A stretch of 64,000 nt of DNA, taken from NCBI RefSeq assembly GCF_014203355.1, contig NZ_JACHIR010000001.1, positions 3,288,038-3,352,037 of the forward strand. Reading direction: 5' to 3'. The notes under the pieces are model-generated. The model saw only the letters and a program-made list of their open reading frames with translations. It ran no database searches and had not been told where the DNA came from. How positions within the stretch are numbered: position 1 is the first letter of the stretch; every line of letters begins with the position of its first letter. The stretch comes from Kutzneria kofuensis (lineage in GTDB: Bacteria; Actinomycetota; Actinomycetes; Mycobacteriales; Pseudonocardiaceae). The translations under genes and the position numbers were made by a program. Below are positions 37,254 to 59,117 of the stretch, in pieces.

Positions 37254-40666
<3,413 letters not shown>

Positions 40667-40667
<1 letters not shown>

Positions 40668-41260: not shown

Positions 41261-44012
41261 GGTGGCCCTGCCGCTGGAGGCTATCAACCGGGAGTCGGCC
41301 CGCGAAAAGTCGATCCGGCATGGACACCCGTCGACCCTGCATCTGTGGTGGGCACGCCGCCCGCTCGCGGCGGCTCGGGCGGTGCTGTTCGCCCAACTTG
41401 TCGACGACCCGTCATCGCGGCCTGACGAGTTTCCGACCGAGGAACTGCAGCGCAAAGAGCGGGAGCGCCTGCACAACCTGATTGAGCGGCTCGTCGTATG
41501 GGAGAACATCCGCGACGAGAAGCTGCTGGCTGAGGCTCACGCGGAAATCCTGAAGTCCACCGACGGCAATCCTCCACCGATTCTCGACCCATTCGCCGGT
41601 GGCGGCACCATTCCCCTTGAAGCGCAACGGCTTGGACTGGAGGCACACGCCTCCGACCTCAACCCGGTCGCCGTCCTCATCAACAAGGCGCTCATCGAGA
41701 TACCGCCAAAATTTCGTGACCAGTCGCCAGTCTTCCCCGGCCTGGCCGATTCCCAGATCCGGCAGTGGCATGGCGCCGAGGGCCTCGCGGCCGACGTCCG
41801 CGCCTACGGCGCGTGGATGCGCGACGAGGCCGAGAAGCGAATCGGCCACCTCTACCCCAAAGCCGCGCTACCCGACGGCACCCAGGCCCCTGTAATAGCC
41901 TGGATCTGGGCCCGCACCGTTACCTGCCCCAACCCCGCCTGTGGTATCGAGACGCCGCTAGTCCGGTCATGGTGGCTGGGCAAGAAAAAGGGCAAGGAGG
42001 CTTACATTGTCCCCTCCGTCGTCACCGACCCCAGCCTGCCTGCTGGACGGCGAGTGAAGTTCGAGATCGGCCACGATGTGGGACGCATCCCACAAAATGT
42101 CGATCAAGGAACCGTCGGACGGACCGGTGCCACGTGTATCTCAGTCTCGTGTGAAGCACCAATAAAGCTTTCCTACATTCGTGACGAGGGTCGAGCTAAA
42201 CGGCTTCGAACCCAACTCATGGCCATCGTTGCTGAAGGAAATCGTCGGCGCAACTACGTTCCGCCAGATCAGCACCACATTGCCGCCGCCGCCGTCGCGC
42301 CCCCAGCTGACACCATTGTCGGTTCGCTTGGCTACTACCCGCGTGACCTGAAGGCACCGACCTACGGGCTCACAGAATTTACCGACCTTTTCACCAATCG
42401 CCAGCTTGTGGCGCTGACAACCTTCAGTGACCTGGTCTCCGAGGCTCGTGCCCGCGTCCTCGTCGACGGCAACTCCGCGACATACGCTGACGCTATCGCC
42501 ACTTATCTCGGAATGGCGATCAGTCGAACCATTAACAAGTCGACCTCCATCTGCTCTTGGGACAGCAGTCCCAAGATGGAAGCAGTACGTGGGCTGTTCG
42601 CTCGCCAGGCGATTCCCATGTCATGGGACTTCGCCGAAGCGAACGTCCTCGGCTCATCGTCTGGCAACTTCGCTGAAGACGTAGAGTGGGTGGCGCGGTC
42701 ACTAGAACGCCTGCCGATCAAAGGTACTTCCGGCGAGGTCAAGCAGGCCAATGCCGCTAATCGCGATTACTCGTCGCTACTCATCAACACAGACCCTCCG
42801 TATTACGACAATATCGGTTACTCGGATCTTTCCGACTTCTTCTACGTATGGCTGCGCCGTTCCCTGCGCTCGATCCATTCGGACTTGCTCGCCACGATGC
42901 TCGTGCCGAAGGCAGAGGAACTTGTTGCGAACCCCTATCGCCATGGCGGCAAGGACGGTGCGCGGGAATTCTTCGAGGGTGGCTTCCGTAGTGTATTCGC
43001 CCGCGCCAGGGAGACAGCTTTCGATGACTATCCAATCACGGTCTGGTATGCGTTCAAACAGAGCGAGGATGATGATTCCGGCGAGGCATCGACAGGTTGG
43101 GAGACGCTTCTCGAAGGGATGATCCGCTCGGGCTGGAGGATCACGGCCACATGGCCGAACCGCTCCGAGTTGGGCAACCGAATGATGGCCAAGGACATGA
43201 ATGCGCTCGCCTCCTCGATCGTCCTATCGCTCCGGCCGCGACCGGAGGGGGCACCGATGGCTGACCGCCGTGGGTTTATCGCGGCGCTGGAGGCCGAACT
43301 CCCTGACGCGCTTCGCAAGCTTCAGCAGGGACAGATTGCGCCGGTTGACTTGCCACAGGCTGCGATCGGCCCCGGAATGGCTGTGTACAGTCGCTACAGC
43401 GGGGTGATCGAAAATGACGGGTCGAAGATGACCGTCCGGTCCGCGCTGGCGCGGATCAACGAAATCCTCGACCAAGTGCTGGCCGAGCAAGAAGGGGACT
43501 TCGACGCGACGACGCGGTTTGCGATCGCGTGGTACCGACAGCACGGTTACGGCATCGGAAAGTTCGGGGACGCCGATAGTCTCGCTCGGGCGCGGAACAC
43601 CAGTGTGGTCGTGATGGACCGGGAAGCGATCTTGACTAGTCGGGCGGGCAACGTTCAGCTCCTCAAGCCGGCGGATCTGCCATCGGCGTACGACGTCCTC
43701 AAAGACAGCCACACCAGCAACTGGGAAGCACTGCACCACCTGATCAAGGTCGTGGAGCGCGATGGCATCGCTCACGCCGGTGGCTTCCTCCAGGCCGCGT
43801 TGAGCCGTCCCGACGGGGCCGTTGACGGTGATCTCGTCAAGGAACTCGCCCACTTGTTGTTCCGCATCGCCGAGGGAAATGGCTGGACCAAAGATGCGCT
43901 GAGCTTCAACAACCTCGTCACGAGCTGGCCCGAGATTTTCGAGGTAGCGCGGGCCGTGCAAAAGCCGGTCCAAGAGCAGGGCGCATTCGACTTTACTGAG
44001 GGGGACGATTGA
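41238..44012 (+). CDS. DUF1156 / COG1743-type DNA methyltransferase with zinc ribbon (DrmMI-like)
   Basis: This 924-residue protein begins with the DUF1156 signature SIRHGHPSTLHLWWARRPLA (about 25-44). It has the SAM-binding motif ILDPFAGGGTIPLEA (117-124 core), a Cys-containing segment TCPNPACGIET that may form a zinc ribbon with later Cys residues, and the catalytic DPPYYDNIGYSD near residue 519, the NPPY-type motif of N6-adenine or N4-cytosine methylases. The C-terminal third is helical and unassigned. By analogy with DISARM it would mark host DNA as self. The ATG at 41238 lies inside the previous gene, and the DUF499 gene starts one base after its stop. Confidence 0.87.
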   Translation: MYKRKLIEVALPLEAINRESAREKSIRHGHPSTLHLWWARRPLAAARAVLFAQLVDDPSSRPDEFPTEELQRKERERLHNLIERLVVWENIRDEKLLAEAHAEILKSTDGNPPPILDPFAGGGTIPLEAQRLGLEAHASDLNPVAVLINKALIEIPPKFRDQSPVFPGLADSQIRQWHGAEGLAADVRAYGAWMRDEAEKRIGHLYPKAALPDGTQAPVIAWIWARTVTCPNPACGIETPLVRSWWLGKKKGKEAYIVPSVVTDPSLPAGRRVKFEIGHDVGRIPQNVDQGTVGRTGATCISVSCEAPIKLSYIRDEGRAKRLRTQLMAIVAEGNRRRNYVPPDQHHIAAAAVAPPADTIVGSLGYYPRDLKAPTYGLTEFTDLFTNRQLVALTTFSDLVSEARARVLVDGNSATYADAIATYLGMAISRTINKSTSICSWDSSPKMEAVRGLFARQAIPMSWDFAEANVLGSSSGNFAEDVEWVARSLERLPIKGTSGEVKQANAANRDYSSLLINTDPPYYDNIGYSDLSDFFYVWLRRSLRSIHSDLLATMLVPKAEELVANPYRHGGKDGAREFFEGGFRSVFARARETAFDDYPITVWYAFKQSEDDDSGEASTGWETLLEGMIRSGWRITATWPNRSELGNRMMAKDMNALASSIVLSLRPRPEGAPMADRRGFIAALEAELPDALRKLQQGQIAPVDLPQAAIGPGMAVYSRYSGVIENDGSKMTVRSALARINEILDQVLAEQEGDFDATTRFAIAWYRQHGYGIGKFGDADSLARARNTSVVVMDREAILTSRAGNVQLLKPADLPSAYDVLKDSHTSNWEALHHLIKVVERDGIAHAGGFLQAALSRPDGAVDGDLVKELAHLLFRIAEGNGWTKDALSFNNLVTSWPEIFEVARAVQKPVQEQGAFDFTEGDD

Positions 44013-44013
44013 C

Positions 44014-47000
44014 ATGGCAGTGAGCAACCGAGACCGCATCGGCCAGATGTTCGACTTGCTGGCCCCCAAGTTGGACGCCTTCCTGTCCCAGATCCTCGAT
44101 CCACAGCTCGAGGCCGGTCGCACCTGGGTAGACATCATCACCGCGGTTGACAACAGCGACGGCAGGGAGGTCCACCGTGGTGATCCGTCGGTCCAGCTCA
44201 AGCTGATCACCCGGGACTATACTCACCGGTATCGGCGTAACTGGCGTCCGTTGAACTCCCACTTGAACCGCACGCATCTGGCTTACGCCGCGGAACTCCT
44301 ACAGGTGCGGCACACGTGGGCGCACATGAGGTCGTTCACCGATGACGACGCGTACCGGGCTCTCGACACCGCTCAGCGTTTCGCGGTCGCGATCGGCGCC
44401 GTCGACACCGGCGAGGAGATCGCGCGGATTCGGCTCAACCTTCGTCGCGTTACCGCGGACAAGGACGACAAGAAGGTCCTGAAGTCCGCGGTCGACAACC
44501 CCGAGGCATCCGGGCTCAAGCCGTGGCGTGAGGTGCTGCCACCGCACGATGATGTCGCGACCGGCAACTTTCATGCCTCCGAGTTCGCCGCCGACCTGTA
44601 CAAGGTCGCTACGGGCGGCGAGGCGGACTCGGACTACGCCGACCCCGTGGAGTTCTTCAAGCGCACCTACCTGACCGAGGGCCTACGTGACCTCATCGGC
44701 CGGGCGGTGCGCCGGCTGTCCGGTGACGACAACGCCTCGCCGGTGATCAATCTGCAGACCAACTTCGGTGGCGGCAAGACCCACTCGATGCTGTCCCTGT
44801 GGCACATCGCCGCCGGGCTCCCGGTGGGCGACTTCCCACAAGACACCCAGGAATTGCTGAGCGCCAGCGGCTATACCGGCGCAAAGGTCAACCGTGTCGC
44901 GATCGTCGGCAACCACCTCAGCCCGTCCGGCGCGACCAAGGACGACGGCACCCAGGTCAACACGATCTGGGGCGAACTCGCGTGGCAGCTCGGTGGCGCA
45001 GAGGGTTACGCGATCGTCGCCACCGCTGACACCAACCGGACACACCCCGGCAACGCTCTCCACGAGTTACTGGCGAAGTACGCCCCGGCAGTGATCCTGA
45101 TCGACGAGTGGGTCGCTTACGCCCGCTCGCTCATTGACCGTGACGATCTCGCCGGCGGCACCTTCGATGACCAATTCACCTTCGCCCAGTCGCTCACCGA
45201 GACGGCCAAGGGCACCTCAGGCGTCCTGCTCGCGATCTCCATCCCCGCCTCCGAGAGCGGCGACGACTCCGAGATCGTCGCCGGTAACGCCGAGGAGGTC
45301 GGCGGCGCCAACGGTCTCGAGGCGCTCAAGCGACTACAGAACGTTGTGCGTCGGGTCGCCGACCAGTGGCGGCCGGCGTCCTCGGACGAGGCATACCACA
45401 TCGTGAAACAACGGCTATTCAAACAACCTGACGCCGCAGCACTTGCCGCGATCGGCGCTACCGCGCGTGCCTATGTGGAGATGTACCGCAAGTACATCGA
45501 CGATTTTCCACGGGAAGCTCGGGACTCGGCGTACGAGAACCGGATCAAGCGGACCTATCCGATCCATCCGGAGCTGTTCGACACCCTGTACGAGGAGTGG
45601 TCCTCGCTAGAGCGGTTCCAGCGCACCCGTGGCGTGCTGCGGTTGATGAGTACGGTCATTCATACCCTTTGGACAGGCGAGGACGCCGCGCCCTTGATCA
45701 TGCCCTCGTCGATTCCACTCGCCACGGCGAACGTGAACGCCGAGCTGACGCAGTACCTCCAGGACTCCTGGAAAACGATCATTGACGCCGATGTGGATGG
45801 TCCCAACTCCGAACCTGCCCGCATCGACCGGGAGAAGCCTCTGTATGGCCAGCGAGCCCTGACCAAGCGCCTCGCCCGTGCGGTGTTCTTCGGTGCCGCG
45901 CCGACCATCGCCCCCGGCTCGGTCCACAAGGGGATCGGTACCCAGCGGGTCTTCCTTGGCACCGCTGTCCCCGGCGACGTGCCCGGCAACTTCCACTCCG
46001 CACTCACCCAACTTGGCGACCGGGCGACCTACTTCTACTCCGGCTCTGGCAAGTACTGGTACGACCTCCAGCCCAACATCACCCGCACCGCCAAAGATCA
46101 GGCCGAGCGCTTGCACAAGGAAGATGTCTGGGCAGAGATCAGGCGTCGGCTGCAGAGCCAGGCCCGCACTCCCGGCGACTTCGCGGGCGTACACGTGTGC
46201 CCAGAGACCAGTTCCGACATCCCCGACACAGACGAAGCCCGGCTAGTCATCCTCCACCCGAAGGTCGCCCACAAGCGCGGTACCGAGTCAGCGGCGAAGG
46301 AATTCACCCAAGAGGCGACCGAACGGCGCGGAAACGCCAACCGAACCCATCGCAACATGCTCGTCTACCTCGCGGCCGACGAGGCCCGGCTCGAAGAGCT
46401 CGACACGGCGACCCGTGACTACCTCGGCTGGCGCCATGTGCTTGACAACGAGGCAGACCTCGACCTGACCCAGAACCAGAAGAACCAAGCCGCACAGCGC
46501 CAGGCTCAGGCCGACCAGACGGTGACCGCGCGCCTGCTGCAAACCTTCACCTGGGCGCTCATCCCCGCCCAGCCCGACCCCGGAGCGCCCTTCTTCCTTC
46601 GGGAGACCAAAGTGGAAGGGCAGTCTGACGCATTGGCTGAGCGGGTCTCGCGACGCCTCGGCAACGACGGTGACCTGTCCACTCGACAAGCTGCCGCGAC
46701 GATCCGTCTGGCCCTGGGCAAAGTTCCACAAATCTGGAAAGACGGCCACGTCGCTCTGGGCTCGCTCTGGGGACTTTACAGCCAGTACCCGTACCTGCCG
46801 CGTCTGCGTGATCGCCGTGTTCTCGACGAGGGCGTGGTCGATCTGCCGATGATCTGGCAGACCGATGCCTTTGCCCTGGCGACCGGCTACGACGAGGTCG
46901 CTAACCGGTACATCGACCTCTGGACACCGGACGATGAGCGGCCCGCTCCCCCCACCTCGGATTCGCTGCTGCTCGTCCGTCCTGACGTCGCCACCCAACA

Positions 47001-47349
47001 GCGCGAGGCCGAAGTCTCTGCGGCGCCGGGAATCTCCCCTGGGTCTACCGAGAGCAGTGCCGAGAAACACTTCGAGCCGGCCCCTGACTATCCCGGCGTC
47101 TACCGCCGGAAGTTCAAGACGCGATTCTACGGCGTCAAGACTCTAAACACCGAGAAAATCGCACTGGACTTCAAGAACATCGCCGAGGAAATCATCACAC
47201 CCCTCCGAGCCGACGAGAGCACGAACCTGACTGTCCGCATCGAAATCGAAGCAACTGATACCTCCGGATTCGAGGAGGGCAAGGTGCGCACGGTCTCCGA
47301 GAACGCCCAAACCCTCAAGTTCGACCAGTCCGGTTTTGAGGAGAATTGA
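44014..47349 (+). CDS. DUF499 AAA+ ATPase with N-terminal Swt1-type HEPN domain
   Basis: This 1111-residue protein starts with a Swt1-like HEPN domain (about 1-130) in which LLQVRHTWAHMRSF carries R99-x4-H104, the Rx4-6H catalytic signature of HEPN ribonucleases. The ATPase follows: NFGGGKTHSM (Walker A, 252-258) and VILIDEWVAYA (Walker B, about 360-370). Long helical regions follow, then a C-terminal beta-rich segment. The ATG at 44014 has GGGGGAC upstream. HEPN-ATPase fusions in defence systems often act as RNase effectors gated by the ATPase; that role is inferred. It is the last gene of the rightward operon, and an IS inserted 26 bp after its stop. Confidence 0.87.
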   Translation: MAVSNRDRIGQMFDLLAPKLDAFLSQILDPQLEAGRTWVDIITAVDNSDGREVHRGDPSVQLKLITRDYTHRYRRNWRPLNSHLNRTHLAYAAELLQVRHTWAHMRSFTDDDAYRALDTAQRFAVAIGAVDTGEEIARIRLNLRRVTADKDDKKVLKSAVDNPEASGLKPWREVLPPHDDVATGNFHASEFAADLYKVATGGEADSDYADPVEFFKRTYLTEGLRDLIGRAVRRLSGDDNASPVINLQTNFGGGKTHSMLSLWHIAAGLPVGDFPQDTQELLSASGYTGAKVNRVAIVGNHLSPSGATKDDGTQVNTIWGELAWQLGGAEGYAIVATADTNRTHPGNALHELLAKYAPAVILIDEWVAYARSLIDRDDLAGGTFDDQFTFAQSLTETAKGTSGVLLAISIPASESGDDSEIVAGNAEEVGGANGLEALKRLQNVVRRVADQWRPASSDEAYHIVKQRLFKQPDAAALAAIGATARAYVEMYRKYIDDFPREARDSAYENRIKRTYPIHPELFDTLYEEWSSLERFQRTRGVLRLMSTVIHTLWTGEDAAPLIMPSSIPLATANVNAELTQYLQDSWKTIIDADVDGPNSEPARIDREKPLYGQRALTKRLARAVFFGAAPTIAPGSVHKGIGTQRVFLGTAVPGDVPGNFHSALTQLGDRATYFYSGSGKYWYDLQPNITRTAKDQAERLHKEDVWAEIRRRLQSQARTPGDFAGVHVCPETSSDIPDTDEARLVILHPKVAHKRGTESAAKEFTQEATERRGNANRTHRNMLVYLAADEARLEELDTATRDYLGWRHVLDNEADLDLTQNQKNQAAQRQAQADQTVTARLLQTFTWALIPAQPDPGAPFFLRETKVEGQSDALAERVSRRLGNDGDLSTRQAAATIRLALGKVPQIWKDGHVALGSLWGLYSQYPYLPRLRDRRVLDEGVVDLPMIWQTDAFALATGYDEVANRYIDLWTPDDERPAPPTSDSLLLVRPDVATQQREAEVSAAPGISPGSTESSAEKHFEPAPDYPGVYRRKFKTRFYGVKTLNTEKIALDFKNIAEEIITPLRADESTNLTVRIEIEATDTSGFEEGKVRTVSENAQTLKFDQSGFEEN

Positions 47350-47375: not shown

Positions 47376-48448
47376 CTAGTGTCCCGTGATCCTGGTGTCT
47401 TTACTTGGCGCTGTTGTCGACCAGCTTCTTGACGTTGACCTGCACCAGCCTCACCTTGGCCAGGATCTCCTCGGCGGTCGCGGTCCAGACGAACGGCGTG
47501 GCGGTGGCGTTCCAGTGCGCGATGTACTCGCGGATCTGCGTGACCAGGACCTTCACCGAGCTGAACGTCCCAACCTTTGGGAGTGAAGTGAAACCGCACG
47601 TGCGGGTTGTCGGCCAGCCAGGCCATGACCTCCGGCGTGTGTGGGGCGACAGGTTGTCCAGCACCACATGCACGTCCTTGCCGGCGTGCGGCTTCACCGC
47701 CTTTTCAGGAACGCCAAGAAGTTCGCGCCGTCACGAGCCTGCGCGCACTCGCCCAACACCTGCCCGGTGCCCACGTTCAACGCGGCGAACAGGCTCTTGG
47801 TGCCATGCCGCACGTAGTCGTGAGTGCGCTTCTCGGTCGCGTCGAACGTGATCGGCAGCAGCGGCTGGGTCCGGTCCAACGCCTGAATCTGCGTCTTCTC
47901 GTCGATCGAGCACCACGGCGCCACCGGGCGGATCCAGGTACAACCCGACGATGTCGGCGACGTTCTCCGCGACCTCCGGGTCCTCGCTGATCTTGAACGT
48001 GCCCTGGCGATGCGACACCGACACCCCCTCTGTCCGGGTGATGAACCCCGCCATCTCCCGGCTCGATCAGCCAGACAGCCCAGTGCAGGCAGGCGGGCTT
48101 GTCCGGCTCAGCGCCAAGATCCGGGCCTGGACACGGGCGGTAACCTGCTCACGCCCGGCGCCGCGTGGCCGATCGAGCAGCCCGGCGAACCCGTTCGTGG
48201 CGTAGCGCGACAGCCACAGATCCACGGTCGGACGCGACACCCCAGCCAGCGCGGCGATGTCCTTCCTCTGCCGACCCTCGTTCTGCCACAACACAATCCG
48301 CGCCCGGGTCGAGACTGTCGCCGCAACGTCCGGGCTGTAGACCAGGGACTGCAACTCGGCTTCCCCCTGCGGCGTCAGCTCCACCCGGGCCGGTCAACAC
48401 CATGACCATTCCACCCCGTGTAAACTAAACAGCTTCACGGGACACTAG
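47376..48448. mobile_element. IS630-family insertion sequence, degraded
   Basis: The element is bounded by perfect inverted repeats CTAGTGTCCCGTGA (47376-47389) and its complement (48435-48448). The outer CTAG on each side fits the NTAN target and TA duplication of IS630 elements, so the IS proper runs about 47379-48445. It lies in the short gap between two convergent operons, and removing it restores a plain intergenic junction. Its transposase is broken, so it cannot move by itself. Confidence 0.85.
47401..48384 (-). pseudogene. IS630-family transposase, frameshifted and internally deleted
   Basis: Pieces of one transposase lie in successive frames: an HTH region at 48384-48067 (KDIAALAGVSRPTVDLWLSR), the first DDE Asp in CSIDEKTQIQALDR (near 47910-47860), and the second Asp in VHVVLDNLSPHTRR (near 47680-47630). 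After FTSLPKV the sequence jumps to GTFSSVKVLV, so the segment that normally carries the catalytic Glu is missing. At least two frameshifts are needed to join the parts, and this copy is inactive. Confidence 0.82.
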
Positions 48449-49443
48449 CGACAGTTGCTGCAGATGCCATCCTGAAGATCATTCTTTGGAGATTGCGCGA
48501 AGCATTCTTTGCAGGTTCCGGTCAATGACTGTCGTCGCTGGCAGTCGCATCGCCCGCATCGTGGGCAGAACGGCTTCCCGCAGTCGGGGCAGGGAAACCC
48601 TGTTGTGGCGCCGGTGAAGCCGCATCGGCAGGTGAAGGTGGTCCTCGGGCGGTCGGTTCTCTGGTGTTCCGGGCCGGTTAGGTGGAGCTTGTCGACGTTC
48701 CAGAGATCTAGCTCGGCGAGAACAGCGTACGTGCGCTTCGGAGATGCTGCGGCATTCAAGTAGAAGGTGTTCCGAGTACCCCACGGAGTGGACCAGAATG
48801 ACTTTCGGACCAGTTGCTGGCCGGGTTGCAGGCGGACCAAAGGGTGGTCGCTGGGGACGCCTTGCCCAGAACTGGGGTAGACCGCGGGGCGGTCGACCAA
48901 CCGCGCGTGAACGACCTTTTGGGTGGCACGGTCCGTGATGACGACCGCGCCTGTGCAGGTGAGACGACGGGCCAGGGCGATGGCGCATACGATTTGACTG
49001 GCCTCGGTCGTCTTGAACAGCTCGAGCAGGTGCTGCCCGGTGATCGGCCCTTTGCCGACGATCGTGTTCAGGACTTCGTCTGGCACGAGGAGCATGGCGG
49101 CGATTTCGTCGCAGAGTTTCTCGAGTTCGATGGCCGGTTCGTCCTGGTCGGCGACCCAGTTCACGGCTTCCTCGTCCTGAAGCACCAGTATGTGCCCGTA
49201 CTCGTGCAGGAGGGTGAAGTTCTCGCGGCGTGAGTCCGTGGGCGAGTACAGCACGGTGTTGTGCTCGCTGAACGACATTCCGTCGCACATCCCGTTCGCG
49301 CCACGGCGAGAAGTCAACTGCTCAACTGCGCGAACGGTGAGACCGGTCCCGGTCATCGCTTCGAAAGGTGCTCGGCGAAGTGCCTCTCGAAGCGGTGGAG
49401 GGAGTGCCCGCACCAGCCTGGTGGCCTGGCTTCTCCTTGTCAT
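48445..49443 (-). CDS. ImmA/IrrE-type metallopeptidase with C-terminal multi-zinc-ribbon tail
   Basis: This 332-residue protein has the zinc-protease motif LLHEYGHILV (80-84 core) and a downstream Glu-rich helix (ELEKLCDEIAAMLLVP) typical of ImmA/IrrE peptidases, which cleave partner repressors. Its last 65 residues are packed with Cys pairs (CRCGF, CPDCGKPFCPRCGRCDC, CKECF, CSNC), an unusual zinc-ribbon array. The ATG overlaps the XRE gene stop as ATGA. The TAG stop lies at the IS border, but the IS target duplication preserved the original stop. It ends the seven-gene ubiquitin-like operon. Confidence 0.88.
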   Translation of the reverse strand: MTRRSQATRLVRALPPPLREALRRAPFEAMTGTGLTVRAVEQLTSRRGANGMCDGMSFSEHNTVLYSPTDSRRENFTLLHEYGHILVLQDEEAVNWVADQDEPAIELEKLCDEIAAMLLVPDEVLNTIVGKGPITGQHLLELFKTTEASQIVCAIALARRLTCTGAVVITDRATQKVVHARLVDRPAVYPSSGQGVPSDHPLVRLQPGQQLVRKSFWSTPWGTRNTFYLNAAASPKRTYAVLAELDLWNVDKLHLTGPEHQRTDRPRTTFTCRCGFTGATTGFPCPDCGKPFCPRCGRCDCQRRQSLTGTCKECFAQSPKNDLQDGICSNCR

Positions 49444-50090
49444 GATCTGTCCAAAAATCCGGGGATCGACCGAAACTGGCGGAGGACGCCGAGCAATGCC
49501 TCGACCGAGCCGCCGGTGCGGTTCCGATGGGCGGCGTCGGCCAATGTGGACGAAGCGCGCTGGCGGAGCACCGCGGGCTGAACGCCGGCCTCGGCTGCCC
49601 AGTCCGAGAGAAAAGCTTGGATCCTCTGGTCGTCGAAGAGGTCGTCCATGCCACCGGTCGGCTGCACCGCGGTGAGAAGCGCATCGTCTCCGACAGAGAG
49701 CTCTTCGGCGATCGCCGTGATGAGCGCGGGGGCCAGGGCAGGACGGCCGAGCTCCCACTTAAACGCTTCCTGCATGGTCACCTCCCACCCGCGAGCGTTG
49801 AGGCGGGTGACGAGCTGACGGAGGTCCAGCCGTGACCGTTTGCGCGCGGCCGCGAGTTTGCGGCCATCGACGAGTACCCCCGGATCGGGCACGAGGCCGA
49901 GCATCAGGGCGACGGGGTCGTCGTGCCTGACGGGTTCGCGAGTTGGAGGCCCGGATCGGTCCTGCTCTTCCGCGGCCAGTTCGGCGGCGACGTTCACGGC
50001 GTCGAGCCAGGGATCCATCGCGTCGTGCATGTCCGGAGCTTGGCCGTCGTCGGTGCGTTGCCTGGAACCGTCATCAGGGTTGCCGGTCAC
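49440..50090 (-). CDS. XRE-like DNA-binding regulator
   Basis: This 216-residue protein has a disordered acidic N terminus, then an HTH-like region near 77-130 (GRKLAAARKRSRLDLRQLVT, then VTMQEAFKWELGRPALAP), and a helical C terminus. The region resembles an XRE repressor but is divergent. Its stop overlaps the ImmA/IrrE gene start and its GTG (50090) lies inside the 3' end of the sigma-like gene by 17 bp. XRE-ImmA pairs are usually repressor and activating protease, and this pairing is the best guide to its role. Confidence 0.72.
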   Translation of the reverse strand: MTGNPDDGSRQRTDDGQAPDMHDAMDPWLDAVNVAAELAAEEQDRSGPPTREPVRHDDPVALMLGLVPDPGVLVDGRKLAAARKRSRLDLRQLVTRLNARGWEVTMQEAFKWELGRPALAPALITAIAEELSVGDDALLTAVQPTGGMDDLFDDQRIQAFLSDWAAEAGVQPAVLRQRASSTLADAAHRNRTGGSVEALLGVLRQFRSIPGFLDRS

Positions 50091-50664
50091 GCGGACGATT
50101 CACCTCCTCCTTGAGCCTCTTAAGTGCTTCCTTATGCAGCTGGCTTACTCGTTGGCCGGTCAGGTTCAGCTCTTCGCCGATTTCCTTATTGGTCCGGTGG
50201 TGGGCGTGCTTAGCGATGACGATCGCACGGGAGCGCTCGTCGAGTGCGTCCAGCGCAGTCTTGGCGCGGTCTGCGCGCTCTGCCTGTTCGAGGTACTCGT
50301 CTTGCTGGAGGACGGAGTCGCCGGTCGGATCGTGCGGTACGTCGCGGTGAATCCGCGGATCACCGTCGTCGACCTCCTCATGCTGCCGCGCCAGTGCCAG
50401 GGTCTTGCAGGCGTTGCCGACCGCAACGTGCAAGTAGGCCTCCCAGTTGGACGGCCGGGGCATCCGGCCCTCCTTGCGGTAGTTCACCAGCCGCTCGAAA
50501 ACGATGCTGAGCGCCGTGCCGGCCTCGCTCCGCAACCTGAAGGGAAGCTTTCCCTCCGCGTAAGTTTTCAGGGTTCCGTGGTAGCGCGCGTAGAGCGCGC
50601 CGGGGTCGGCCACCGGGCCGTCGGTCGACCCCGGCGCCTCACCCGCTTCCTGACCAGCGCTCAC
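50074..50664 (-). CDS. Sigma-70-like factor (ECF-type)
   Basis: This 196-residue protein has a region-4 HTH (ALDALDERSRAIVIAKHAHH, then NKEIGEELNLTGQRVSQLHKEALKRL). A region-2-like helix bundle near 25-95 includes TALSIVFERLVNYRKEG and WEAYLHVAVGNACKTLALAR. The GTG at 50664 follows the E1-like stop by 34 bp, the only gap of more than a few bases in this operon. It may activate the operon's own promoter. Sigma-like genes inside ubiquitin-like operons are unexpected. Confidence 0.8.
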   Translation of the reverse strand: MSAGQEAGEAPGSTDGPVADPGALYARYHGTLKTYAEGKLPFRLRSEAGTALSIVFERLVNYRKEGRMPRPSNWEAYLHVAVGNACKTLALARQHEEVDDGDPRIHRDVPHDPTGDSVLQQDEYLEQAERADRAKTALDALDERSRAIVIAKHAHHRTNKEIGEELNLTGQRVSQLHKEALKRLKEEVNRPRDRQP

Positions 50665-50698
50665 AGCAGCAGTATGCGCCGAATGCCCGCGCGCCAGC

Positions 50699-52258
50699 TC
50701 ATGACGCACCGTGCGCGACCTCGACCGGCACCGAGGCGTCGCCGTACAGCTGCTGGTACCACCAGAGCCGCGTCCCCGAGCGGCACAAGCACCGGCCCGT
50801 GCGGTCGGCCGGCACTCGGCGGACCAACCCGGGCGGCAGTCCACTGAGGTCGACATCCACCCGGCCGGTCAACACCGGTAGACCGTGAATCTGTTTCACA
50901 ACTTCCGCCGCTGCCAGCACTCCGGCGAACCAGGACACCTGCGGCGCGGCCACGGCAACCACCTCCTCACCGCCGGCCGAGGAGCCCATACGGACCTCGG
51001 CTTCGGCGTACGCCTGACGGACCAGGTCGTTGATCGTCCGGCCGACGAGCGCGTCGCGCCGATGTGCGGGCAGTTTGCCCGCCGCGATGGCCTGGTCGAC
51101 GTCCGCGGCGGTCAGCTGGGCTCCGTCCTGGAGCAGCGCGAGTACCCGCTGGACGGACAGACCGGTGGTCTCGGCGTAGACGCCCGCTTGGGTGGCCGGG
51201 GGCTGGGCGCTGACGAAGCCGCAGAACGGACACGCGAACCCGTCGCCGAACCCTTCCCGCTGGGCGTGCAGGGAGAGGCCGGACACGCCGAGGGACAACG
51301 TCGACCGGGCCAGCACGTCGGTTACCTCCAACCGGCCCGTAAGGGTGTCGACCGACGACAACACCAGCCCGTCGAAGCCCGGGTTTTCCCGGTTGACGAC
51401 CCAGTCGGCGACGCTCTTGGCGACCGGACGTGCGCTCAACCCGAGCTCAGTGAGTTTGGAGGCCATGTAGTCCGCCTTCGGCCCCGTCTCGATCCCGAGG
51501 AGCGCCGGATAGCGAAAAGGGTTTCGCGTCCTGTCGAAGATGTCGGAGTCGATTACCGTGATCTCCTCGAGAGCGCCCGCGCTCGACGTCCCGGTGAGCT
51601 GTGGCGCGAACACCGTCGCGAGCAGGGCGAGGCTGCTCGTGCCCACCGAGCCGACTCCCGCGACGGCCAGCTCCAGGCGATCCCGGGTCGGTGGGAGCAC
51701 AGGTATCTCCGACGCTGCGGTCAATTCGTAGTCGATCAAGTTGGTCACGTACGACGCGTCCACGGCAACGCCCGAGAACCCGAGGGGGCCGAGCACGCGG
51801 ATTAGGAGCTGGCTCACCGCCAGGCACGCCGCCGCGTGCACGCCGAGCGCGTGGGTCGTTACGACGCCCCAGGGCTGCGGAATCCGGCCGAGACGGACGG
51901 TGTAGTCGTCGCCACCCACGCCGAGGTCGCCGGCCTCCACCTGGATCCCGAAGGTCACCACGAGGGTCCGCTGCGGTGCGCGCGCAGGATGAGGACGTAC
52001 GTAGGCCAGCGCGGTCAGCAGGGCGGTGCTGTCGCTGGCGCCCCACCAGTTGGGTGCCAAGGCGACCGGATGCTCGAAGGCGACGTCACCGAACAGGCGT
52101 GCCGCCATGCCGGTGAACGCCGCCAGCGCGGTGGCGGCCCCGCCGGTCACGTTCGCCTCGGCGCGGATCACCACCCGCACGTCGTCCAGGGCGCGCAGGA
52201 GCTCGGCCGCGGCCGATTCGTCGGCGGTGCCGAGGAGCCTCAGGCGCGGATCAGTCAT
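50699..52258 (-). CDS. E1-like ThiF-family adenylyltransferase
   Basis: This 519-residue protein has an N-terminal domain of about 190 residues with no clear match, then a ThiF/E1 Rossmann fold: LAVAGVGSVGTSSLA (201-206 core), TVIDSDIFDRTRNPFRY (Asp and the NxxR element) and GPKADYMASKL with the conserved Lys. Cys pairs FACPFCGF (343/346) and GRCLC near the C terminus probably bind zinc. A typical E1 catalytic Cys is not obvious between the Rossmann core and the zinc site. E1 enzymes adenylate the C-terminal Gly of a ubiquitin-like protein. Its ATG overlaps the JAB gene stop as ATGA. Confidence 0.87.
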   Translation of the reverse strand: MTDPRLRLLGTADESAAAELLRALDDVRVVIRAEANVTGGAATALAAFTGMAARLFGDVAFEHPVALAPNWWGASDSTALLTALAYVRPHPARAPQRTLVVTFGIQVEAGDLGVGGDDYTVRLGRIPQPWGVVTTHALGVHAAACLAVSQLLIRVLGPLGFSGVAVDASYVTNLIDYELTAASEIPVLPPTRDRLELAVAGVGSVGTSSLALLATVFAPQLTGTSSAGALEEITVIDSDIFDRTRNPFRYPALLGIETGPKADYMASKLTELGLSARPVAKSVADWVVNRENPGFDGLVLSSVDTLTGRLEVTDVLARSTLSLGVSGLSLHAQREGFGDGFACPFCGFVSAQPPATQAGVYAETTGLSVQRVLALLQDGAQLTAADVDQAIAAGKLPAHRRDALVGRTINDLVRQAYAEAEVRMGSSAGGEEVVAVAAPQVSWFAGVLAAAEVVKQIHGLPVLTGRVDVDLSGLPPGLVRRVPADRTGRCLCRSGTRLWWYQQLYGDASVPVEVAHGAS

Positions 52259-52728
52259 CGGGCTTCCGCCTCCGGGTCCACACGGAGGCGAAGATCCCGT
52301 TCGCTGCCCGGGGGCAGGGAACGCCACCGATCGCCTTCGCGGCGCAGAACCGCACACGTGTCGAGGCCGAGGCGCAACCCGAGCCCGAAGAACGGAACGA
52401 CGATGGAAAGTGCGCCCTCGTGGGTCAAGACGGGGTTCGCGTCGTCGGCGGGTGAGTGGAATGCCTCTGCCGGGTGGGAGTGGATCCGGGCGACGTAGAG
52501 CTCTTCGGGTTCGAGGGCCAAGGCCAGTTCGATCTGCCCGGCCCGGGTGACCTCCACGGAGACGCCGCCGCCGGTGCCCCGCCACGGCCGCTGCTGCGGA
52601 ACGACGAGCGCCGCGCCGTTCGGGCCGCTTTTGATCATGGCGGTGCCCTCGTGACCGCGGGCCCCGCGATCTTCGAAGAACATCCGCGCGTCGGCCAGCA
52701 GTTGCGTCGGCAGAACCAGGGGGCTCAT
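52255..52728 (-). CDS. JAB/MPN (Mov34) metalloprotease, predicted deubiquitinase-like
   Basis: This 157-residue protein has a JAB/JAMM fold with a Glu in RGHEGTAMI (near 27) and the metal site ARIHSHPAEAFHSPADDAN (83-97), close to HxHx7SxxD but with one residue fewer between the His and Ser. In ubiquitin-like operons these enzymes process the precursor or remove the modifier from targets. The ATG overlaps the E2-like stop, and the stop overlaps the E1-like ATG, so the three are translated together. Confidence 0.85.
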   Translation of the reverse strand: MSPLVLPTQLLADARMFFEDRGARGHEGTAMIKSGPNGAALVVPQQRPWRGTGGGVSVEVTRAGQIELALALEPEELYVARIHSHPAEAFHSPADDANPVLTHEGALSIVVPFFGLGLRLGLDTCAVLRREGDRWRSLPPGSERDLRLRVDPEAEAR

Positions 52729-53141
52729 AGCCCCACCTTGGTCAGGAGGCGGTCCAGGAGGCTGTCCGCCCGGAGTGCGTATCGCACCGCGTCCCACCTT
52801 TCTCCGTAGTGGCTCTCGTGGGCGTAGTAGGCCCGGGTGCCGCTGACGCAGACCCAGGGCACGCCGAGGCTGCTGTGGATGCCGTGGGCGAACCCAGGGA
52901 TCCACTGGTCGAGCGGAAGCACGTCGCCCGCGTCGTCGACGAGGGCGACGTCGAACGGCTCCGCGTCATATTGAGAGCCGTCCAACCGCAACGTCCACAT
53001 GCCGCCGACGGGCGGCCGCAGCGTCATCAACAAGCTGGAACCCTCACGGCGGAGGTCTCCTGCGCGAGGGCCCAGCCGTGCCCGCGCCTGCTCGACCTCG
53101 ATGTCGAGCAGGTCGGCCAGCACCCGCGGGTGCAAGGCCAT
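52725..53141 (-). CDS. E2-like ubiquitin-conjugation protein (Prok-E2 type)
   Basis: This 138-residue protein contains HGIHSSLGVPWVCVSGTRAY followed by YAHESHYGERWD near its C terminus. The single Cys (C98), with flanking His and Trp residues, resembles bacterial E2-like families found between ubiquitin-like and E1 genes. The N-terminal half is beta-rich (LLMTLRPPVGGMWTLRLDG). It would carry the activated modifier as a thioester on C98. The family assignment rests partly on context. Its ATG overlaps the ubiquitin-like stop by one base. Confidence 0.75.
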   Translation of the reverse strand: MALHPRVLADLLDIEVEQARARLGPRAGDLRREGSSLLMTLRPPVGGMWTLRLDGSQYDAEPFDVALVDDAGDVLPLDQWIPGFAHGIHSSLGVPWVCVSGTRAYYAHESHYGERWDAVRYALRADSLLDRLLTKVGL

Positions 53142-53464
53142 CAGCCGTCGACCTGCGGCTTGCGGTTGATCAGCACGAGCACGTCGTCCTCACGCACGCC
53201 CGCGTGCCGGAGGGTCGATGTGGGGTCGAGCTCGCCTTCGCCGCCGCGGGGCAGGGTCAGGGCATACTCGCCGTCGACGAGCTCGCCCTTGTTGATGAAG
53301 TACTTCACCGCCTTGCGGGTCAGATCCGCGACCTTGTCGTCCGGCTTGACCGTCTCCCGTACCTGGTGGCCCGCCAGCGTCCGGACGGTCACGTGAAACG
53401 GGTGGCCGCCGCCGTGGCCAGCCTGCTCGTCGTTCGGTCCCTGCGGGACATTGGTGGTCGGCAT
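53141..53464 (-). CDS. Ubiquitin-like beta-grasp modifier protein
   Basis: This 107-residue protein has a disordered Gly/His-rich N terminus of about 22 residues and a beta-grasp domain: FHVTVRTLAGHQVRETVKPD, DLTRKAVKYFINKG, YALTLPRGGEGELDP, and a final strand DDVLVLINRKPQVDG. It ends in a single exposed Gly, the residue an E1 would adenylate, with no GG and no residues to trim. The start has a strong GAGGAGGAG ribosome binding site, fitting a modifier made in quantity. It is the first gene of the leftward operon; the promoter is not clear. Confidence 0.82.
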   Translation of the reverse strand: MPTTNVPQGPNDEQAGHGGGHPFHVTVRTLAGHQVRETVKPDDKVADLTRKAVKYFINKGELVDGEYALTLPRGGEGELDPTSTLRHAGVREDDVLVLINRKPQVDG

Positions 53465-53908
53465 CGTTCTCCTCCTCGGTTTCGTTGCCGTGTACCGAGT
53501 AGACGATCGAGCTCACCAGAATGAAAATGTCCAGGTCAACGACGCTGTGCTGTCTAGGTTGGAGAGTGCTGAGTGAGCGATGGCCGCCGCAGGCAACTGC
53601 TCGACTCGTCCGGCTAGCGGACTGAGCCCGGCACAACTGCTGGCCCGCATGCACGAGCCGTGGGTAGTGTCACGCGCTGGAACGCCGCACGGGCGATGCC
53701 AGCCCGCCGACTGCGACGTCGGTGACCTGCCAGCGCTCGTGCCCGTTGATGGTGTTCGCTGCAAGGGCTGCCGTCGGCGTTCTCGGTGGGCTGGTCGGCT
53801 TCGCCGCGCACTCAACCTCAGCGTTGGGCAAGGCACCCTACAATATGACATTCCAACGGTATATAACGAAACCGACTCAATCCGGCATCGCATGTCCAAA
53901 ATACGTCG
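53465..53908. other. Intergenic region between the ubiquitin-like operon and HTH copy B
   Basis: These 444 bp separate divergent genes and should hold both promoters. TTGACC occurs on the minus strand at 53534-53539, but no convincing -10 element follows at the right spacing. The part nearest the HTH gene (53840-53900) is AT-rich. No gene is supportable. Confidence 0.5.
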
Positions 53909-54367
53909 GTGGAGGTTAGGGGACCTTACTCGAACATAAAAGACCAGGTCAGGGCCCTGGAAGAGCTACGCGAGAAGCTTCCCAGCCTCGATATCCCCGA
54001 GCCGACCTTGATCAAGCGCGACCGACCTCGCCGGGCCCGGCAACTCCGTGCCGATCAAGTCGAGCAGTTGATCGCTGACTACCGGTCCGGCGCGACGGTG
54101 TACGAACTCGGTGACCGGTTCGGCATCGAGCGGCGGACGGTCAGCAACATCCTCCACCGGCACGGCGTGCCGATGCGCCGCCGCGGCCTCTCCCCCGAGC
54201 AGGTCGACGACGCCATCCACCTCTACAACCTCGGCTGGTCACTGGCGCGAGTCGGCGACCACCTGGGCGTCAACCACACGACAGTGCTGAACAAGCTCCG
54301 TGAACGTGGCATCCCCACGCGAGACTCCCACGGGCGTCCGCGAGTCGAAGCCGGTGGTGCTCGATGA
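53909..54367 (+). CDS. Double helix-turn-helix DNA-binding protein (copy B)
   Basis: This 152-residue protein is the same length as copy A (35594-36052), with about 91 percent identity by eye. The HTH units read [20 protein letters not shown] and [20 protein letters not shown]. Similarity between the loci starts at the GTG and stops immediately upstream, where the sequences are unrelated. Its stop overlaps the DUF2637 start as ATGA. Both copies point the same way, so they form a direct repeat around the 37254-53464 interval. Confidence 0.8.
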
Positions 54368-55164
54368 CCAGGCGTTCAACTGTGTCGACGCGTTCAGGTT
54401 CGGACGGGGCTTCTGTGATTCAGGCTGTCACCGTGATCATGGGCGTCGTCGTTGGCCTCACTTTTCTGTTCGGCTTCGGCAACGTCCTCAATCTCGCGCT
54501 CCGGCTCGGCGTGCCCGCCTGGGTCGCGCCGCTGGTGGCTCCAGCGGTTGACCTTTCGATCCTCGGTCTTCTGCTCGGCACGCGGCACTTGGCTCTCACC
54601 GGTGCGTCCCCGGAGGTCCTACGGCCGGCTCGCCGGCTGCTGATCTTCGCAAGCGTGGTCACGCTCGCGCTGAACGTGGCGGAGCCTCTCGTTGCGGGCG
54701 AGTTCGGTAAGGCAGCGTTCGATGCGGTAGGGCCACTTCTTCTGATCGGATGGTCGGAAGTCGGCCCCGGCCTGTTGCAAGCGATCGGCGCCACGAGTCG
54801 TACACCGGTCGCACGCGACATCGAGCAGCCGGAGCCAACTGTCGATACGAACTCGGATGACGGTGTGCCGGAGGCTCAGGTCCAACTTGACGACGATGTC
54901 CCGCAACAAGGTGGCGAGCAGGCAGTCGTCAAGCGCACGCCGGAGGCACTTTTGGCTCAGGCGCGGCGAGAAGACGCGGCCCACCGTGCCACTCATCAGA
55001 AGCCGATCTCGGCGGACACCCTCCGTGTACGGCTCGGGATTGGCGCGACTCGGGCGCGACGGCTCGTCAAGGCCATCCGAGAGGAGTACCAGGTTCAACG
55101 CGATCAGATTGAAGTGGATGCAACGAGTGAGGAGCAGCGTGCCTCAGCGAGTCTGGCGGCGTGA
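54364..55164 (+). CDS. DUF2637 membrane protein with C-terminal DNA-binding-like segment (copy B)
   Basis: This 266-residue paralogue of 36049-36954 has the same four-helix membrane half ([20 protein letters not shown], then ...[20 protein letters not shown]). Its linker is shorter and different, and the end is a conserved [20 protein letters not shown] segment. The membrane halves are nearly identical, while the linkers share little, so the copies have diverged by more than point mutation. The following 358 bp (55165-55522) show no gene I can support. Confidence 0.8.
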
Positions 55165-57203: not shown

Positions 57204-58358
57204 TCAGGCGGAGTAGCGCTCGGCTAGCCGGTCGAAGAACGCGGCAAGCCGCTTCTCCGTGGCCGGGCCCTCGGCGAGCTCGGCGCCGCCGAAGCGGTAG
57301 ACCTCATAGCCGCGAAGCCGCAAGTCGCGGTCCTCGGTGACCATCTCGGCGTACCGCTGTGGGTCGGCGCGCCCGGACTCGTCGGCGTAGTGCTGCCGGC
57401 CGTCGCACTCGATCACGATGCGGATTCGCTGTGGCAGGAGCAGTAGGAAGTCCATGCGCTGGCGGGGCAAGGGCGCATCACCGAGAACGTGATGTGCTCG
57501 GGTGTACGGGTCGTAGTGGAGGTACACCTGCGGGAGCAGGGCCGGGATGTCATCGCCAAGCCGGACGTAGCGCTCAGCGTATGTGCGCAGGATCCGCCGT
57601 TCCGCGTCATTGCCTCCCAGTGAGCGGTCGAGCCGCCGGTACAAGCCACGCGAGACTTCGCGCGCAGGTGCCGCCGTCAGTCCTTCGCGCTCGGCCCACC
57701 AGCTGGTCAGGTCGGCCCAGGTGAGGCCGTGCGCCGCCAGCGGCCGGTCGTAGATGAGGCAGAACTGTTCGTTCTTGACCACCTGGACGTCGTTGTTGAG
57801 TGCATCGGTGAACACGATCTCCGGTTTGGGGCCGTCCGCGGCGAAGATCAGGTTCTTCATGGAGCCGGGCACACCGGTGCCGATCCTGCGGCCGGCGAAG
57901 ACGGGCGCACCGCTGATGGCGTCGACCTGGACGATCTCGTAGCCGTCGTGAACCAGTGTCTGGTTGAGGAAGTTGTGCAGCTGCTCGACTTCGGTGAGGT
58001 TCGTCCGGACCGTTGGGTGGAGCATCTCCGCCAGGAAGCGCAGGAGCGCGTCATCGTTGTCGGCCAAGCCGAACCGCTCGTCGTTGAAGATCCAGTCGTC
58101 GGGCCAGTCCAGGTTGGCCATGCAGTGCTGGATGATGTCCTCGCGCGCTGTGGGGAACTGCGTGGACCTGGAATCTGTGGTGGGCAGCGTGTCGAGGTCG
58201 TAGAGGCGCACGAGGAACTCGACTTCGTTGAGCACGCCGAACCAGGCCGTGGTGGCGAGACCCTCGATGAGGCGCCGCCGGGTGACATCGGTGATGCGGC
58301 TCGCCGGTGCGATGGGTGCCTCCTGGGAGTCGGCTGCAGGCGGTGAAGAGGTCGTCAA
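57204..58358 (-). CDS. AbiJ-NTD3 domain fused to a DUF559/Vsr-like endonuclease
   Basis: This 384-residue protein has an N-terminal AbiJ-NTD3-like region (WFGVLNEVEFLVRLYDLDTL, then DWIFNDERFGLADNDDALLR), a domain of abortive-infection proteins. The C-terminal nuclease has PRQRMDFLLLL, RIVIECDGRQHYAD and LRLRGYEVYRFGG, the D...ExD-x3-H pattern of Vsr/DUF559 enzymes. The TTG at 58358 starts immediately after the qatD stop, so it is probably the fifth gene of the Qatuor transcript; no ribosome binding site is visible and a later start is possible. Confidence 0.8.
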   Translation of the reverse strand: MTTSSPPAADSQEAPIAPASRITDVTRRRLIEGLATTAWFGVLNEVEFLVRLYDLDTLPTTDSRSTQFPTAREDIIQHCMANLDWPDDWIFNDERFGLADNDDALLRFLAEMLHPTVRTNLTEVEQLHNFLNQTLVHDGYEIVQVDAISGAPVFAGRRIGTGVPGSMKNLIFAADGPKPEIVFTDALNNDVQVVKNEQFCLIYDRPLAAHGLTWADLTSWWAEREGLTAAPAREVSRGLYRRLDRSLGGNDAERRILRTYAERYVRLGDDIPALLPQVYLHYDPYTRAHHVLGDAPLPRQRMDFLLLLPQRIRIVIECDGRQHYADESGRADPQRYAEMVTEDRDLRLRGYEVYRFGGAELAEGPATEKRLAAFFDRLAERYSA

Positions 58359-59117
58359 TCAGGCTGGCGGCGGCTCACCGGCGGTGCAGCGAAGTCGCTG
58401 TTCGTTCTGGGCAATCGCCTTTCTCGCTTCATCGGTCGACATACCCCAGAGCCGTGCCAGGTGATCAAGTGTTCCGAGGACATCGGAAGGAACGGCTGGG
58501 CGACTCCCGGAGCGGGCAAAGGGGCCATCGGTTTCTAGTAGTACCCGTTGCGGCGGAAGCCGTTGGAGCAGCGGAACAGCTTTCTTCGACCGGATCATGG
58601 CCGGGTTGATCGAGAACCAGAGTCCTGCGGCAAGTGCGTCGTCTACGGCCGACAGCGGCCCGGTGTACCAGTGCAGGATTGCCGGCACGTGCGCTTGCGC
58701 AAGTCGGGTGATGGTCTCCGGCTCGGCGCCCCGGCTGTGGACGGTGACGGGGCGGGTTCGTAGCTGGGGGTCGGCCAGGATTGCCTCGAATACGCGGATT
58801 TGCTGCTTGCGCGTTGCCGCTCCGGTTCGAGAGAAGTCGAGCCCGATCTCGCCGATCCACTTCGCCTGTGGCAAGAGCCGGAGAAATCGAGCGAGATCGT
58901 TTGGGGATGCACCCCCTGCGCGAAGTGGGTGGAAGCCCAGCGCGACGTCGACACCATTGCGTCGGCCCAGGCGGGTACGCAGGAGGCGGTACTTGCCGGG
59001 GTCTTCGGTCACGGCGATCACGTGAACTCCGGCGGCGTGGGCGCTATCCAGGATCTCGATCGGGTTATCGTAGGCATCGATGTGACAGTGGGTGTCGGTT
59101 AGCGCTGGCGTAGTCAC
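58359..59117 (-). CDS. qatD: Qatuor system TatD-family nuclease QatD
   Basis: This 252-residue TatD-like metal-dependent hydrolase has TDTHCHIDAY (HxH), GEIGLDF, TVHSRGAEPE, ILHWYTGP and LLETDGPF, so the metal site is complete. QatD is the putative DNase of Qatuor, an anti-phage system named for its four genes. It is shorter and more divergent than the housekeeping TatD at 2096-2920. The GTG at 59117 overlaps the qatC stop as GTGA, in the order qatA, qatB, qatC, qatD expected for the system. Confidence 0.88.
   Translation of the reverse strand: MTTPALTDTHCHIDAYDNPIEILDSAHAAGVHVIAVTEDPGKYRLLRTRLGRRNGVDVALGFHPLRAGGASPNDLARFLRLLPQAKWIGEIGLDFSRTGAATRKQQIRVFEAILADPQLRTRPVTVHSRGAEPETITRLAQAHVPAILHWYTGPLSAVDDALAAGLWFSINPAMIRSKKAVPLLQRLPPQRVLLETDGPFARSGSRPAVPSDVLGTLDHLARLWGMSTDEARKAIAQNEQRLRCTAGEPPPA

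Follow-up and report, generated by a model that had tools for sequence, protein, structure and literature searches.

A Bil-derived ubiquitin-like operon of Kutzneria kofuensis that encodes its own sigma factor, helix-turn-helix protein and ImmA/IrrE-type peptidase

Organization of the seven-gene operon

A stretch of 64,000 nucleotides (nt) of Kutzneria kofuensis DNA (contig NZ_JACHIR010000001.1, positions 3,288,038 to 3,352,037), here called the window, holds seven adjacent minus-strand genes whose products resemble a ubiquitin-like protein (Ubl), an E2, a JAB/JAMM peptidase, an E1, an extracytoplasmic function (ECF)-type sigma factor, a helix-turn-helix (HTH) protein and an ImmA/IrrE-type zinc peptidase. 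The first four, termed the core below, resemble the Bil genes for ubiquitin-like conjugation, and the last three, termed the triad, recur beside other immune operons. The genes and the promoter-like site before them lie as follows (aa, amino acids; values after profile or structure names are E values).

53141..53464, minus strand: Ubl (BilA-like), 107 aa, C-terminus RKPQVDG; weak DUF2604 match
52725..53141, minus strand: E2-like protein (BilB-like), 138 aa; Cys98 and His111 retained; weak Metal_CEHH match
52255..52728, minus strand: JAB/JAMM peptidase (BilC-like), 157 aa; PADLOC BilC 3e-8; HSHP..SxxD retained
50699..52258, minus strand: E1-like protein (BilD-like), 519 aa; Ala418 at the position of BilD Cys417; BilD of 8tyz 9.3e-15
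50074..50664, minus strand: sigma-70 family (ECF-type) sigma factor, 196 aa from GTG; TIGR02937 1.1e-16; Sigma70_r4 3.5e-12
49440..50090, minus strand: HTH (XRE-like) protein, 216 aa; HTH domain seen in relatives, not in the window copy
48445..49443, minus strand: ImmA/IrrE-type zinc peptidase, CapP-like, 332 aa, cysteine-rich C-terminus; Peptidase_M78; capP 9.4e-10
53499..53527, minus strand: promoter-like site TTTTC-N17-CGTCTAC, upstream of the Ubl gene

An earlier note on this DNA had described seven leftward genes that overlap at all but one junction, and the frame coordinates bear this out: stops and starts overlap at five of the six junctions (TGATG, ATGA, ATGA, 17 nt and ATGA), and the E1 and sigma genes are separated by 34 nt. 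In two of the related loci described below, L026 and L027, this junction is a 4-nt overlap when the longest frames are taken. The GTG start of the window sigma gene is our own choice, the long frame encoding 260 aa, of which the TIGR02937 match spans residues 88-251; Pfam gave the Sigma70_r4 match and no separate region 2 match, and TIGR02937 and Sigma70_r4 together place sigma-70 regions 2 and 4 in the protein, as in ECF sigma factors. Pfam-type HTH families gave no match to the window HTH protein at E 0.1, and in the alignment of HTH proteins HTH_31 was found in 8 of 19 members and HTH_3 in 3 of 19. The HExxH motif and seven C-terminal cysteines are invariant in all 20 aligned ImmA proteins.

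Relationship of the core genes to Bil

The Ubl, E2, JAB and E1 genes are adjacent and in the order of Bil operons. Compared with solved chains, the window E1 gave one match, to BilD of 8tyz over residues 113-512, and it matched the PADLOC BilD profile weakly (0.023). The earlier note had called the Ubl-pathway genes Bil-like, which agrees with this E1 match and with the BilC match of the JAB peptidase; the latter retains HxH..SxxD, which we take to be the JAMM hallmark. Below their curated cut-offs, the Pfam families DUF2604 and Metal_CEHH matched the window Ubl (0.017) and E2 (0.16). A protein search with the window E1 found eight rhizobial plasmids, and in all three of the rhizobial operons examined the first gene is a DUF2604 gene and the fourth is annotated as 'E2 ligase fold family C'; for the second and third genes, two operons have the annotations metal-binding and Mov34/MPN, while the remaining one lists both as hypothetical, and there they align with their counterparts in the other two. 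Together, the E1 and JAB matches, the rhizobial operon parallels and the weak Ubl and E2 matches indicate that the four-gene core descends from BilABCD.

The core nevertheless departs from Bil at catalytic positions. The review PMC11354881 describes BilD Cys417 as the residue that forms the E1~BilA intermediate, and BilB as working with Cys138 and with E144, H146 and H151 of its CEHH motif. Alignment with 8tyz places Ala418 of the window E1 at the position of Cys417, and this alanine, within a stretch RQAYAE, is invariant in all four E1s of the seven-gene type (window, L025, L026 and L027), whereas L002, L003 and two rhizobial E1s carry CGG at the site. The loss of this cysteine was overlooked by the earlier note. 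The only cysteines common to the four E1s are C145, C343, C346, C490 and C492, the last four of which probably serve as zinc ligands; C145 is also found in L002, the rhizobial E1s and BilD and is replaced by Thr in L003. The E1s retain G201, G203, G206, D237, N246, R249 and D304, presumably the adenylation residues. In the E2s, Cys98 and His111 are retained, the Glu of the CEHH motif is replaced by Ala or Gly and its first His by Tyr. In the window and L025 the final residues of the Ubl are DG; the L027 protein runs on for seven more residues, an extension that the JAB protein could trim. Because all four E1s have Ala at the Cys417 position and half of the CEHH motif is missing from the E2s, the core, as judged from its sequences, is a Bil-derived variant and not canonical Bil.

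Conservation of the seven-gene unit

To find relatives, genome contigs were scanned with an alignment of three ImmA proteins, which gave 44 loci. According to local profile searches, all 40 actinobacterial loci (L025-L064) carry the sigma, HTH and ImmA genes in that order; the four distant loci L065-L068 (26-28% identity) matched neither the sigma nor the HTH profile, and L018-L022 contain ImmA relatives with no sigma or HTH match, so neither group was counted as triads. E2, JAB and E1 genes precede the triad in the same order in 3 of the 40 loci: L025 from Rhodococcus opacus (Nocardiaceae) and L027 from Allobranchiibius (Dermacoccaceae) have the full seven-gene order including the Ubl gene, and L026, from an actinomycete metagenome-assembled genome of a different family from the window, has six of the seven genes, the Ubl gene lying beyond the contig end. 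On phylogenetic trees the triads of the window and L025-L027 form one clade, with support of 97/91 for ImmA (44 sequences) and 96/81 for sigma (41 sequences; bootstrap not quite settled, 0.988 against 0.99). L022, L057 and L064 were omitted from the trees; L057, a near-copy of L031, was also removed before the motif and cargo counts, and L029 and L062 are labelled 'other' in the trees, their cargo having been identified only afterwards.

Searches with E1 gave few further sequences. The single window E1 found no relatives in the genome-contig scan, 1 of 297 family genomes (its own) and 4 of 396 genomes across the phylum, its own included; L004, from the phylum search, looked unrelated when its frames were inspected by eye and was rejected. 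A profile of the four E1s found 2 of 394 class genomes, the window's own and G741, where the match is the L026 contig once more, and the seven-gene unit therefore stays at four loci. Among viral contigs there was one weak ImmA relative. The earlier note had called for a search for the seven-gene order across actinobacterial genomes and had regarded the seven genes as one unit; the recurrence of the order in three further loci, in L026 as six genes, and the single clade of their triads uphold that view and indicate that the unit is rare but real, and more than packing.

The sigma-HTH-ImmA cassette and its cargo

The earlier note had the triad built into a single seven-gene system, which holds for the window, but the triad is also a free-standing cassette beside cyclic oligonucleotide-based antiphage signalling systems (CBASS), multi-ubiquitin genes and canonical Bil. 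There are 42 distinct triads (the window, L016, L017 and L025-L064 minus L057), of which 38 lie outside the seven-gene type. Cargo was assigned for 24 of the 42: four triads have Bil-like cargo as in the window, and 20 of the 38 others adjoin CBASS, multi-ubiquitin or canonical Bil genes. Canonical Bil is the cargo of one triad, L062 (BilB 4e-38, BilC 3e-53, BilD 3.5e-115), where the 150-aa protein encoded at the expected BilA position gave no PADLOC match. Cargo of Multi_ubiq, DUF6791-ThiF and DUF6527 genes accompanies three triads, L055 by Pfam and L041 and L063 by their ThiF and DUF6527 gene clusters. A Multi_ubiq-like gene with another ThiF protein is found at eight (L044-L048, L050, L051 and L053), assigned by the ThiF gene cluster, with L050 tested (3.9e-26); six of these eight have a small Ubl gene in its cluster, and Multi_ubiq matches four of five tested small Ubls of such operons (best 2.8e-4, Pfam), although profile comparison did not join this short Ubl family to Multi_ubiq. 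CBASS cargo is found at a further eight (L028-L032, L034, L035 and L054), assigned by the CD-NTase cluster, with L028, L031 and L054 tested, and for L029 by PADLOC.

The triads of L054 and L055 are 83-88% identical, yet CBASS follows the former and Multi_ubiq genes the latter, which looks like a cargo swap. Three plasmids also carry the triad, annotated as a sigma factor, a hypothetical protein and either ImmA/IrrE (two plasmids) or a further hypothetical protein (one). Since the cassette adjoins several other immune systems, it may serve bacteria as a general means of turning immunity on.

Several further observations concern the surroundings of the triads. In 23 of 41 triad loci a conserved small gene of about 51 aa (MAKNTGxGHR.GAV...) comes after ImmA and the second motif; the one copy tested had no Pfam match. 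A TrwC relaxase gene adjoins the triad of L031 (4932-8486), and genes of the relaxase cluster C1 are present in 11 loci, a count that takes in L057 and some spurious short frames; this is a hint of mobile elements. The triad of L016, which has no assigned cargo, is convergent to a Lamassu-like set. The triads of L059-L061 share large upstream genes without assignment and a gene with a weak DNA methylase match (0.0032, L059), and L060 has a helicase like PDC-M23B/HamB nearby; the shared genes are possibly further immune cargo.

Other protease modules accompany related operons. In L019 (5111-12913), a CBASS operon (TIR-SAVED, CD-NTase, E1-E2 and JAB) encloses a more distant CapP-like ImmA (1.2e-14) behind an HTH-like protein (HTH_31 0.036) and one protein without assignment. 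In L023 (3818-5578) an actinobacterial Bil-like operon adjoins an HTH-ImmA fusion (Pfam), as does a Bil-like operon in L024 (9829-11471), where the fusion matches PADLOC RmrA (2.3e-22). Both L023 and L024 also have a gene that is PIN-like by eye, and their protease module differs from the triad.

A promoter-like motif at triad loci

The sequence TAAC-N17-CGACTAC was first noticed by reading the upstream regions of triads. Counted as TAA[CT]-N15-19-CG[AT]CTAC in the 38 triads outside the window type, it precedes sigma in 26 loci and closely follows ImmA in 26, with 4 matches elsewhere in 654,644 bases on both strands; 20 shuffles per locus gave an expectation of 1.15 matches in total. The motif had been seen by eye in the same loci in which it was later counted, and only the three plasmid loci, themselves related to those used for motif finding, are independent of its discovery; in their triads five of the six expected sites are present, with none elsewhere in those loci. 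Two of the 4 other matches are divergent sites on the CBASS-gene side in L028 and L030, and a slightly different pattern gave 27 sites before sigma and 28 after ImmA when these divergent sites are counted. The common core is CTAAC..CTCGACTAC..TGAG, two-part with a spacing of 16-17 nt, the TGAG part being found mainly in downstream sites.

At genome scale, the exact form gave 23 matches in 15 of 16 genomes, 22 of them within 250 nt of a triad, in a sample of 16 of the 38 loci that were all picked for having a match; the reversed motif gave 6 matches in the same genomes. The motif is thus nearly private to the triad and its cargo. This TAAC-type motif is absent from the window and L025-L027. Instead, the window, L025 and L027 each have one match to a related pattern, YTTTC-N17-CGTCTWY, just ahead of the Ubl gene, and the window and L025 sites match at 28 of 40 positions, compared with at most 26 of 40 in 100 shuffles. 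A conserved two-part motif is hence found where a promoter of the operon would be expected, and its recognition by the sigma factor is putative.

Genomic surroundings

The seven-gene locus sits between an Hma system (HmaA, HmaB and HmaC; 37254-47349) and Qat-like genes (57204-63299; QatA 2.1e-92, QatC 3.4e-99), an arrangement consistent with a defence island. Just downstream of ImmA, at 47401-48384, are broken transposase frames that look IS630-like by eye. A direct repeat of 866 bp with 85.7% identity (35594-36459 and 53909-54774) covers part of a duplicated gene pair and flanks the Hma and Bil-like segment. GC content, about 0.70 over the first half of the window, drops to 0.62-0.65 at 34-50 kb, and the operon has values of 0.64-0.68; this may be a sign of acquired DNA. 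ARAGORN found no tRNA genes in the window.

Proposed mechanism and alternatives

The reading that we favour, at somewhat better than even confidence, is that of a Bil-derived operon for ubiquitin-like conjugation that carries a self-amplifying switch of its own. The HTH protein would hold the operon promoter silent until a damage or infection signal triggered the CapP-like ImmA protease, which would remove the HTH protein and lift repression. The sigma factor, made from the same mRNA, would then direct RNA polymerase to the operon promoter, and transcription driven by it would yield more of every operon product, sigma included, in a self-amplifying manner. The E1 would adenylate the Ubl and, as it has no catalytic cysteine, would probably hand it from the adenylate straight to the E2 cysteine, and the JAB protease would trim or remove the tag, which is probably attached to proteins during virus attack. 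The earlier note had already proposed that the sigma factor amplifies expression of the operon; the placement of the promoter-like site fits this proposal, while binding of the site is putative.

Several points weigh against this reading. The gene order, the common descent of the triads, their modularity across immune operons, the placement of the motif and the residue changes are observed, whereas the binding, cleavage and expression steps are predicted from sequence. The window HTH protein has no capH profile match at E 0.1, and 18 of the 42 triads, some on short contigs, have no assignable cargo. Cargo lies upstream of the triad in the Bil-like loci and after or divergent from it in the other assigned loci. 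The motif is absent before sigma in 12 of the 38 triads and after ImmA in 12 of 38. In the Bil-like loci, the -35 half is TTTTC instead of TAAC, the YTTTC pattern was fitted to the three loci that contain it, and the L027 site on its own does not rise above shuffles. TTTC-N17-CGTCTAC also occurs six times in the window's genome (control, 0), and the Ubl-upstream site is therefore not private there.

One alternative is that the unit is an accident of packing, in which a mobile regulatory or toxin-antitoxin-like triad has come to lie behind an unrelated Bil-like operon. The occurrence of triads in 38 other distinct loci that lack this Bil-like gene set, the relaxase gene beside the L031 triad and the three triads on plasmids would suit such a history, but the same gene order in four loci of differing families, the overlapping genes, the single clade for sigma and for ImmA and the promoter-like site before the first gene make it quite improbable. 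A stronger contender, though still somewhat unlikely, is that the HTH protein is an anti-sigma factor that holds the sigma factor, instead of a promoter repressor, and that ImmA cleavage frees sigma. The fixed order of sigma, HTH and ImmA in all 40 actinobacterial loci is compatible with this, as is the lack of support for binding of the HTH protein near the promoter, for which no operator search was made; however, the HTH domain in relatives suggests DNA binding, and CapH of the published pair is described in PMC13373217 as a DNA-binding repressor.

The remaining alternatives concern the conjugation pathway. An E1 without the catalytic cysteine could work outside conjugation, either as a maker of adenylate or thiocarboxylate in the manner of ThiF or MoeB or as an inactive partner, and both the alanine in all four E1s and the loss of the E2 residues equivalent to E144 and H146 speak for this. 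It is nonetheless unlikely, given the Gly, Asp, Asn and Arg residues of E1 that we take to function in adenylation and given that E2 Cys98 and His111, the JAMM motif and the C-terminal Gly of the Ubl are all retained. The conserved cysteine cluster at the C-terminus of ImmA also raised the idea of an E3-like part of the pathway, but the cluster is invariant in the 20 aligned ImmAs, including that of L029 (CBASS) and those of loci without known cargo; as loci lacking Ubl cargo conserve it just as strictly, the cluster is a feature of the triad rather than of the Ubl pathway, and an E3 role, which is very improbable, was rejected. The self-amplifying Bil-derived operon thus remains the preferred reading.

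Comparison with known systems

The operon shares with Bil the order Ubl-E2-JAB-E1, the likeness of its E1 to BilD of 8tyz and of its JAB to BilC, and the E2 cysteine and last histidine, but differs in the absence of E1 Cys417 and of E2 E144 and H146, in the sigma, HTH and ImmA genes inside the operon and in the poor PADLOC BilD match. Bil tags phage structural proteins and protects against phage, activities that the window operon may share. A close regulatory parallel is CapH+CapP, in which, according to PMC13373217, single-stranded DNA activates the CapP protease, which cleaves the CapH repressor. Both controllers combine an HTH protein with a CapP-like zinc peptidase (HExxH and the capP match in the window), have overlapping genes and lie beside immune operons; in the window, however, the HTH protein is not recognized as a CapH-type repressor, a sigma factor is added, and the triad comes at the 3' end in the Bil-like loci. 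According to section 7 of PMC13373217, CapK+CapS is likewise a two-gene controller beside CBASS, Bub and Bil, but it consists of other proteins, a kinase and a STAS repressor. The triad sigma factors resemble ECF (group 4) sigma factors in their TIGR02937 regions and two-part promoter-like motif, and differ in that their sites seem confined to their own locus (16 genomes). Bub, as described in section 7 of PMC13373217, is similar in placing a ubiquitin-like operon under a protease-linked controller, and some multi-ubiquitin operons carry this triad, but the Ubl, E1 and partner families are different (Multi_ubiq, DUF6791-ThiF and DUF6527); we infer that the multi-ubiquitin operons seen here are Bub in the published sense.

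The earlier note knew of no described Ubl operon with a sigma factor and a repressor-protease pair built in. The second half of that statement does not stand: section 7 of PMC13373217 reports that 219 of 544 Bub operons have CapW or CapH+CapP and that CapK+CapS occurs at 443 loci, five Bil operons among them, and controllers adjacent to Bil or Bub are thus already on record. CapW, CapH+CapP and CapK+CapS act by relieving repression. The half concerning the sigma factor holds up so far, as in PMC13373217 'sigma factor' is found in nine places, all of which concern anti-sigma proteins, their antagonists or references, and a text search of the 2006 survey PMC1779556 did not find the term. Among the literature matches listed, no title or abstract start describes the triad or an E1 without the cysteine, a weak negative. 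The sigma factor is probably the new part, repressor-protease control of ubiquitin-like operons having been published.

A broader proposal, which we hold only tentatively and with the balance tipped against it, is that the triad is a general sigma-based immunity controller of actinobacteria with a private promoter that is swapped among CBASS, multi-ubiquitin and Bil operons, and that its most integrated form would drive a new conjugation pathway by way of an E1 without the cysteine, the tag passing from the adenylate to E2 or target. How costly immune operons stay off yet switch on fast is the open question that is addressed here. A cassette with a dedicated sigma factor and promoter would add positive feedback, and its motif offers a way to predict which unknown operons it has as immune cargo. 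With a conserved E1 that lacks the catalytic cysteine, a step of ubiquitin-like transfer that has long been assumed would become open to direct tests.

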